A stretch of 64,000 nucleotides of DNA from Thiotrichaceae bacterium. Its GTDB lineage: Bacteria; Pseudomonadota; Gammaproteobacteria; Eutrophobiales; Eutrophobiaceae. The notes under the pieces were generated by a model. That model saw only the letters and a program-made list of their open reading frames with translations, did not search any database and was not told the DNA's origin. The position numbers were made by a program, and so were the translations under genes. Below are positions 55,939 through 60,369 of this stretch, one piece after another. Where the stretch lies: the NCBI GenBank assembly GCA_012960105.1, contig DUBV01000005.1, positions 71,433 through 135,432 on the forward strand, written 5' to 3'. Positions within the stretch are counted from its first letter, which is position 1; every line of letters starts with the position of its first letter.

Positions 55939-57005
<1,067 letters not shown>

Positions 57006-57039: not shown

Positions 57040-57705
57040 ATGAAGATGCCAAGTAACCGGTATCCGTTCATTGCTCGTGAAGCATGGCCATTCCTGTTTT
57101 TTGTTTTTGGTTTGGCTGTGCTAGCGCAATTTCTTATTGGCGCAAGTGCATCTATCGTTTTACTCCTTATCTTTGTTGTTTTTGTTTATCTGTTCCGTGA
57201 TCCTACTCGCGAGATACCTTCCGAACCCTTAGCCGTTGTTAGTCCTGTTCATGGCGTGATTACTTTAATTGAAGAGGCTGAAGAAATTCATCCGCATGCA
57301 AAGACGATACGAGTACAGATTAATATGCGAGCTCATGATATCTATTCCTTACGTGGTCCAATTGAAGGCAAGGTCATGGAACAATGGTGTTCTTCTACAG
57401 ATAAAAATGAATCACGTCGACATTTTGATTTTCATATCAAGTCGGATGAAGGTGATGACGTGGTTACGGCTATTCGTTTGCGAGATGTGATTCGTAAGTT
57501 TCATGTCTATATGCATTCTGGTGAACGCATAGGTCAAGGGCAACGCGGTGGCTATATTTATTTCGGTGGCCTTGTTGATGTGTTTTTACCAATTGAATCA
57601 AAAGTAAAAGTCGAAGTTGGGCAATATGTTGAGTCAGGTAGCAGCGTATTAGCGCATATCATTCATTCCAAAGCAGCTAGCGTAATTCAAGACGAAGATA
57701 ACTAG
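57040..57705 (+). CDS. Phosphatidylserine decarboxylase-family protein lacking the Gly-Ser pyruvoyl cleavage site
   Basis: 221 aa; VSPVHGVITLIEEAEEIH, INMRAHDIYSLRGPIEGKV, GYIYFGGLVDVFLPIESKVKVEVGQYV; normal family members have FGS at the FGG position. Confidence 0.85.
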   Translation: MKMPSNRYPFIAREAWPFLFFVFGLAVLAQFLIGASASIVLLLIFVVFVYLFRDPTREIPSEPLAVVSPVHGVITLIEEAEEIHPHAKTIRVQINMRAHDIYSLRGPIEGKVMEQWCSSTDKNESRRHFDFHIKSDEGDDVVTAIRLRDVIRKFHVYMHSGERIGQGQRGGYIYFGGLVDVFLPIESKVKVEVGQYVESGSSVLAHIIHSKAASVIQDEDN

Positions 57706-57814: not shown

Positions 57815-58552
57815 GTGATGAAACGCAGACGTGGCATTTATCTATTACCGAATCTGTTTACCACAGGCGCATTGTTTGCTGGTTTCTATTCTATTATTGC
57901 GTCGATAAATCAGCACTTCGAAGCCGCTGCGATAGCCATTTTTGTTGCCATGATACTTGATGGTATGGATGGTCGAATTGCACGAATGACTAATACCCAA
58001 AGTGATTTTGGTATGCAATACGATAGTTTGTCAGACATGGTCTCATTTGGCATGGCACCAGCATTAGTCATGTATCAATGGGCCTTATTTGGAATGGGAA
58101 AGCTCGGTTGGTTAGCCGCTTTTGTTTTTACGGCGTCAGCCGCATTGAGACTATCACGCTTTAATACGCAAGCTGCAAGTCAGGACAAACGTTATTTTCA
58201 AGGTTTACCGAGTCCTGCGGCCGCTGCAGTTTTAGCCGGAATGATTTGGTGTGGGACAGTTTACAATTTGATTGATGAGACGACATCATTAGTTTTTTGT
58301 CTTCCGGTAACGGTTATCCTCGGCATCTTAATGGTGAGTAATGTTCGTTATCATAGTTTTAAGGAATTTGATCTCAAGGGACGAGTGCCCTTTATGGCTA
58401 TTCTGGTAATTGTGCCAATATTTGTTTTGATTGCGATGGAACCACCATTAGTCTTATTTCTCTTGGCAGCAAGCTACGCTATTTCAGGGCCAATTTTGAC
58501 TTTGCTTACTTTACGTAAACATCGAGAAGCTAGAAAAGCGCCCGAATCCTGA
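57815..58552 (+). CDS. pssA: CDP-diacylglycerol-serine O-phosphatidyltransferase
   Basis: 245 aa; CDP-alcohol phosphotransferase signature DGMDGRIARMTNTQSDFGMQYDSLSD. Confidence 0.95.
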   Translation: MMKRRRGIYLLPNLFTTGALFAGFYSIIASINQHFEAAAIAIFVAMILDGMDGRIARMTNTQSDFGMQYDSLSDMVSFGMAPALVMYQWALFGMGKLGWLAAFVFTASAALRLSRFNTQAASQDKRYFQGLPSPAAAAVLAGMIWCGTVYNLIDETTSLVFCLPVTVILGILMVSNVRYHSFKEFDLKGRVPFMAILVIVPIFVLIAMEPPLVLFLLAASYAISGPILTLLTLRKHREARKAPES

Positions 58553-58833: not shown

Positions 58834-60369
58834 ATGCAGGATAAATTAATTATATTTGACACGACTTTGCGTGATGGTGAGCAAAGTCCCGGCGCCTCAA
58901 TGACGAAGGATGAAAAGATTCGTATTGCCAAGGCCTTGGAAAAATTGCGCGTCGATATTATCGAAGCGGGTTTCCCTATTGCCAGTCAGGGCGATTTTGA
59001 AGCGGTAAAAGCCGTGGCTGAAATTATCACTGAAAGTACCGTATGTGGTTTGGCGCGAGCACTTGATAAAGATATCGATCGAGCGGCTGAAGCACTTAAG
59101 CCAGCAAAATCATCACGGATTCACACGTTTTTAGCGACCTCACCTATACACATGCGCGAGAAATTACGTATGTCACCAGATCAGGTCGTTGAACATGCGG
59201 TGCATGCTGTAAAGCGTGCAAAAACTTATACCGATAATGTTGAGTTCTCACCGGAAGATGCTGGACGTTCTGACTTTGACTTTTTATGTCGAGTGATAGA
59301 AGCGACCATTGATGCGGGTGCAACAACTATTAATATTCCGGATACCGTTGGTTATAACTTACCGCAGTTCTTTGGTGAGTTGATTAAAAACTTAATCGAA
59401 AATATTCCCAATTCAGATAAGGCGATATTTTCTGTGCATTGTCATAACGATTTGGGTTTATCGGTGGGTAATTCATTAGCCGCAGTATTGAATGGTGCGC
59501 GACAGGTTGAATGTACCATTAACGGATTGGGTGAACGTGCAGGTAATGCTTCACTCGAAGAAGTCGTTATGAGCGTGCGAACTCGTCGAGATATTTTTAC
59601 TTGTGATACTCGAATAGATACAACTCAGATCATGAATTGTTCACGATTGGTGTCGACAATCACTGGTTTTCCGGTGCAACCTAATAAAGCTATCGTTGGT
59701 GCCAATGCATTCGCTCATGAATCGGGTATACATCAAGATGGCGTATTAAAAAGCCGTGAGACTTACGAAATTATGCGTGCAGAAGATGTTGGCTGGAATG
59801 CCAATCGTATGGTCTTGGGAAAACATTCTGGTCGAAATGCCTTTCGTTCACGCTTGGAAGAATTAGGCGTTACTTTTGAAAAAGAAGAAGATTTGAATGA
59901 TGCTTTTTCTCGTTTTAAAGATTTAGCGGATAAGAAGCATGAAATCTTTGATGATGATTTACAGGCGTTGGTCAGTGATGCACTTCAAGATAGTGCCAAT
60001 GAAAAGATTAAACTTGTTTCAATTAAAGCATCAATCGAAACGGGTGAAACACCTAAAGCAGAAATAACGCTTTCTATAGACGGTGAAGAGAAACAAGCTA
60101 AAGCTGAAGGTGGCGGGCCAGTTGATGCAACCTTTAAAGCTATCGAAAGCATGGTGAATAGTGGTTGTGATTTGCAATTATATTCAGTTAATAACATAAC
60201 CAATGGTACCGACTCTCAAGGTGAAGTAACCGTTCGTCTTGATAAAGGAGGTCGCATAGTTAATGGTTTAGGTTCAGATACAGATATTGTGGTTGCTTCT
60301 GCAAAAGCATATATCAGCGCGCTAAATAAAGTGTTGGATCCTTCTCAGAAGGCACACCCGCAGCTTTGA
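58834..60369 (+). CDS. leuA: 2-isopropylmalate synthase
   Basis: [38 protein letters not shown]; start placed at ATG 58834 (GGAG RBS), not 58780, because 58780 would put the attenuator region in the coding sequence. Confidence 0.96.

Follow-up and report, generated by a model that had tools for sequence, protein, structure and literature searches.

A conserved phosphatidylserine decarboxylase homologue lacking the catalytic triad, encoded between ilvC and pssA in Gammaproteobacteria

Background

The phosphatidylserine decarboxylase (Psd) of E. coli cleaves itself by means of a triad, D90/D142-H144-S254 (PMC7952604). In AdoMetDC, a catalytically dead paralogue activates its pyruvoyl enzyme (PMC5201418). 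For the enzyme that supplies phosphatidylserine (PS), PssA, replacement of the E. coli protein by the integral PssA of B. subtilis made PE rise with enzyme amount; the native E. coli enzyme is self-regulated at the lipid level, while the B. subtilis enzyme in E. coli is not (PMC8027125). A search of the open literature for a PSD pseudoenzyme or an ilvC-psd-pssA locus returned nothing relevant. Here we describe such a locus in a 64,000-nucleotide stretch of contig DUBV01000005.1 from a Thiotrichaceae bacterium (assembly GCA_012960105.1), referred to below as the window.

Results and discussion

The locus and its psd homologue

The gene order at the locus is ilvB-ilvN-ilvC-psd-pssA-leuA. On the forward strand ilvC (55963-56979) is followed by the psd homologue (57040-57705), by pssA (57815-58552), which encodes an integral-membrane PS synthase of the CDP-alcohol phosphatidyltransferase type scoring over the TIGR00473 cut-off, and, 3' of pssA, by leuA (58834-60369). 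The original prediction of an intact reading frame in the order ilvC-psd-pssA-leuA thus holds, the frame running through 221 codons without a break and ilvB-ilvN extending the cluster upstream. Scanning the surroundings of the gene for promoters and terminators yielded fewer sites than shuffled sequence did and was uninformative.

The encoded protein belongs to PF02666 (PS_Dcarbxylase), with a Pfam score of 50.8 bits against a gathering cut-off of 22, yet it falls far below every NCBIfam cut-off for Psd equivalogs. Its best match is NF003680, at 130.7 against the 262 bits called for, whereas three of four canonical short Psds used as controls pass that cut-off (L128, L160 and L188, at 307-318 bits). 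Searching the window protein against PDB sequences with phmmer gave no match. We refer to the protein as a degenerate short-type Psd homologue, or pseudo-Psd.

Loss of the catalytic residues

The canonical reference was a sample of 17 short Psds of the same class, all of which carry Asp, His and Ser in the three triad columns. In the alignment the pyruvoyl Gly-Ser cleavage position is occupied by F175-G176-G177 (ttc-ggt-ggc, 57562-57570), with G177 in the column that holds the pyruvoyl Ser in 17 of 17 canonical proteins. A Gly-Gly without Ser at this site had been predicted, and no other Gly-Ser of the protein aligns at the catalytic position. Beyond that prediction the other two members of the triad are gone as well. 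The Asp of the SPxDG motif is His71 (57250-57252), the window reading SPVHG for SPADG, and the His of NVHSNR is Tyr102 (57343-57345), within DIYSLR; this column holds Tyr or Phe in 97 of the 116 members of the degenerate clade described below. Window residues were matched to the E. coli triad numbering by eye, in our own alignment. The invariants of the canonical substrate loop (FxNAxLDKASxENER) and the VQVAGLxARR segment are lost in the degenerate clade, and six alignment columns are deleted.

Two candidates for a displaced cleavage site were considered. The first, G200-S201-S202 (57637-57645), was rejected because position 201 is unconserved (S, T, E, A, V and others) and the turn to which it belongs, with a widely kept G200, is also found in canonical Psds; the original prediction had placed this later GSS in an unrelated segment. 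The second, Cys170, was rejected on conservation, and the window protein itself has no Cys at that position. Judged by its sequence, the window protein has almost certainly lost PS decarboxylase activity.

Predicted structure

An AlphaFold2 model of the window protein, built with 84 sequences, reached a pLDDT of 85.7 and a pTM of 0.81. The predicted fold comprises a beta-domain and a pair of hydrophobic helices at residues 13-32 and 35-51 (57076-57192, forward strand; mean hydropathy 1.43 and 2.78), which probably form a membrane hairpin. The top PDB matches of the model were to PsiD, an enzyme of the PSD family (8x4q), at an E-value of 1.3e-2 and a probability of 1.00, and no PDB structure matched it at 0.001 or better. 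A canonical short Psd modelled as a control matched E. coli PSD (7cnz) at 1.4e-4. The model is that of a divergent Psd fold.

A clade of degenerate homologues

Within its genus, 11 of 12 genomes, counting that of the window, have a homologue of the window protein, as do 31 of the 53 genomes of its family; the remaining 22 family genomes gave no pseudo-Psd match. Across the Gammaproteobacteria, homologues at the ilvBNC-[psd]-pssA-leuA locus span about 50 family codes and constitute one clade, and in almost all of the loci fetched across the class the pseudo-psd lies between ilvC and pssA. Among 322 genomes sampled from the class, a profile of this clade (A1) recovered a homologue of either kind, degenerate or canonical, in about one in three. 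When the clade was sought beyond the class, the 29 loci drawn from a phylum-wide sample (16 from the same class, 13 from other classes) all proved canonical. Long open frames of 577, 568 and 543 aa, which had hinted at fusions, were dismissed as high-GC read-through overlapping ilvC.

An intact D-H-S triad is present in none of the 116 clade members, against 17 of 17 canonical short Psds. Gly-Ser is kept in 13 of the 116, but with Tyr, Phe or Gly in place of His; six others keep the His without the Ser, and the His is lost in 110. The triad columns vary within the clade, reading HYG, DYA, DYG, DYR and other combinations. In the tree all homologues without the triad lie on one side of a single branch that separates them from the canonical short Psds (SH-aLRT 100), and the same split was recovered once the active-site columns had been removed (SH-aLRT 95). 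The window protein groups with the other triad-less homologues of the ilvC-pssA locus in both analyses (monophyly, support 100 and 95). The finding is thus one that extends to a large clade, for which loss of catalysis is well supported. The suggestion of a new variant, made from the window alone, stands in so far as the clade is undescribed, but not in the sense of a novel pyruvoyl chemistry.

Several individual genomes depart from the common arrangement. In G002 the cluster is split, the pseudo-psd still following ilvC (L208, contig C3) while pssA-leuA is on another contig (L241, C2). At L256, L257 and L260, where no pseudo-psd was detected, pssA directly follows ilvC, the picture of a clean loss from the cluster. 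In family f83 neither G134 nor G251 has a PF02666 match, although G134 carries a very divergent pseudo-Psd adjoining pssA (L198) that was found by the clade profile only.

Selection and residues gained by the clade

In a codon model covering the genus and near relatives, omega was 0.073 for the pseudo-psd, 0.071 for long-type Psd, 0.048 for PssA and 0.022 for IlvC; strong purifying selection on the pseudo-psd is well supported. The clade also carries constraints of its own at positions that vary in canonical Psds. By weighted frequency these are E109 (57364-57366) at 100%, the acidic turn D136-E137-x-D139 (57445-57456) at 100% for D136 and E137 and 96% for D139, R163 at 100%, G165 at 99% and Q166 at 92%, along with P60, P63 and L64. 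A hairpin motif, GERxGQGQRCG (57520-57552), is a signature of the clade. The window protein has E109, this motif and the clade's TDExDD in full, save for Gly in place of Cys170 and SDEGDD for the acidic turn. Residue 170 (57547-57549) is Cys in 92 of the 116 members; Gly occurs in the window protein and in no other of them, whether through natural variation or through an error in the assembly.

Because omega is as low as 0.073 and new invariant residues have been gained, the gene is no relic. A decaying pseudogene, carried along within the ilv-pssA-leuA cluster, would explain why the catalytic residues drift freely and why 22 family genomes, some with pssA right after ilvC, have no match. It would not be expected to evolve as slowly as a functional Psd, to keep intact frames over a very deep clade, or to combine clade-specific invariant residues with a good predicted fold, and we consider it extremely improbable. 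That the pseudo-Psd has a function under selection is well supported.

The same derived residues bear on the possibility that the clade is a new, non-pyruvoyl enzyme built on the Psd fold, in which E109, D136/E137/D139 and the GERxGQGQRC segment would serve as an active or metal site. Strong purifying selection and the restriction of these invariants to the pseudo clade are what such an enzyme would show. However, the core of the fold has no invariant His, Cys170 is mostly conserved but missing in the window protein, the conserved set is rich in Gly, Pro and acidic residues in the manner of structural turns or interfaces, and no known reaction can be assigned, so that we regard a new enzyme as distinctly unlikely.

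A second psd in the same genomes

The assembly from which the window derives contains exactly two PF02666 matches, the window gene and G000:C14:54597-55250. The latter is of the E. coli (long) type, with 294 aa, an intact triad (SPVDG, DYHRIHMP, NMGST) and 240 bits to TIGR00163, over the cut-off. The genome search proposed with the original prediction, for a second canonical psd, was thus positive, and PE synthesis need not rely on the window gene. In the class sample a canonical Psd is encoded elsewhere in 87 of the 93 genomes that carry the degenerate gene, against none of the 17 with a canonical short gene. One of the 93, G166, has a copy cut off at the end of a contig, and its type is uncertain. 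Fisher's exact p for this co-occurrence is 2.6e-15, a value that ignores shared descent; phylogenetically, the association comes down to what is essentially a single event. The most parsimonious history has PE synthesis pass to a long-type Psd, with the short copy at the pssA locus relieved of catalysis on one occasion. The window protein has no triad, none of the 116 clade members has an intact one, a canonical psd is present elsewhere in the genome and selection is strong; the proposal of a pseudoenzyme is thus well supported.

Long-type Psd was not detected in a few genomes (G134, G233, G256, G277, G318 and G347). Such genomes, and the PF02666 homology itself, would suit a protein that is still a pyruvoyl PS decarboxylase and matures at GSS 200-202 or at Cys170. 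We hold this to be very improbable given that position 201 is variable and that canonical Psds have the same turn, and given the missing Cys170 of the window protein, the loss of His in nearly all of the clade, the lack of an intact triad in every member and the loss of the FxNAxxxKASxxNER and VQVAG motifs.

Family f91 includes three genomes from two genera, G347 (L085/L226), G256 (L229) and G373 (L230), that have pssA and a pseudo-Psd and no detectable canonical Psd, at completeness values of 95, 96 and 86%, respectively. PE may be absent from these bacteria or made by another route. G142, of the same family, does carry a canonical Psd.

Co-occurrence with a long-type Psd could also indicate that the dead paralogue acts as a prozyme-like activator or PS chaperone, dimerising with the E. 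coli-type Psd or passing PS to it, for which the AdoMetDC prozyme is a precedent in another pyruvoyl decarboxylase (PMC5201418). Against this, the pseudo-psd adjoins pssA and not the long psd, the three f91 genomes hold a pseudo-Psd only, the 87 of 93 amounts to essentially one event on the tree, and many family members have a long Psd and no pseudo-Psd. An activator of Psd is therefore unlikely.

A possible partner of PssA

The reading that we favour, to which we give about even chances, is that the protein is a membrane-anchored Psd pseudoenzyme that acts with the integral-membrane PssA, either as its partner or as a regulator that senses lipid. A role with PssA, as suggested with the original prediction, is plausible from synteny; PssA binding and lipid sensing are inferred. 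In outline, an ancestor shared by many lineages of Gammaproteobacteria would have had a short-type Psd that turned into a pseudoenzyme. With an E. coli-type Psd elsewhere to provide PE, in this ancestor or its descendants, the copy beside pssA could lose its triad and active-site motifs, while the membrane hairpin and beta-domain would be retained and the new set of invariant residues gained. The uncleaved, non-catalytic protein would then stay in the membrane as a partner of the adjacent PssA, its old substrate region might bind PS, PE or an anionic lipid and act as a lipid sensor, and it would in this way tune, stabilise or scaffold PS synthesis.

A role with PssA fits the three f91 genomes without canonical Psd better than a Psd activator does. 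The AdoMetDC prozyme (PMC5201418) serves as a precedent for this reading too. In addition, since an integral PssA can lack self-regulation at the lipid level (PMC8027125), bacteria having such a PssA could use a separate governor. The pseudo-Psd is not an obligate PssA subunit, because pssA persists without it, being present in 52 of the 53 family genomes against 31 for the pseudo-Psd. The presence of PssA is uninformative as a correlate, TIGR00473-type matches being nearly universal in the class (316 of 322 genomes, 288 over the cut-off). Against a role with PssA, synteny with ilvC and leuA equals that with pssA. The position of the gene could be due to nothing more than operon inertia. G002, too, speaks against it, having kept its pseudo-Psd with pssA on a different contig.

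A dead but conserved Psd encoded next to PssA is a concrete and testable candidate. In practical terms, a psd annotation at the ilvC-pssA locus should not be taken as evidence of PE synthesis.

Comparison with known systems

The closest described relative is the short-type Psd (NF003680/PRK05305, TIGR00164-like), with which the window protein shares locus, length and fold class as well as the N-terminal IAREGW segment, RDPxR, SPxxG and the GxRxG hairpin. It differs from the short type in having no D/H/S triad, in the partial deletion of FxNAxxxKASxxNER and in the replacement of VQVAGLxARR. With the long-type Psd of E. coli (TIGR00163, PDB 7cnx/7cnz) it has the PF02666 superfamily in common, but it is short, is predicted to be uncleavable and is a paralogue of its genome's own long-type Psd. 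The best structural match to the model, PsiD (8x4q), is an L-tryptophan decarboxylase of the PSD family; unlike the window protein it is an active fungal decarboxylase, and the two are 9% identical in sequence.

The nearest functional parallel is the trypanosomatid AdoMetDC prozyme (PMC5201418), which is likewise catalytically dead, is paralogous to a pyruvoyl decarboxylase and has lost further active-site elements. The prozyme, however, belongs to an unrelated fold family and forms a heterodimer with its active paralogue, whereas the genetic link of the pseudo-Psd is to the upstream enzyme, PssA. Beside the trypanosome protein, the clade described here would be a bacterial addition to the pseudoenzymes derived from pyruvoyl decarboxylases, a Psd-family member that may be maintained through its own set of selected residues.
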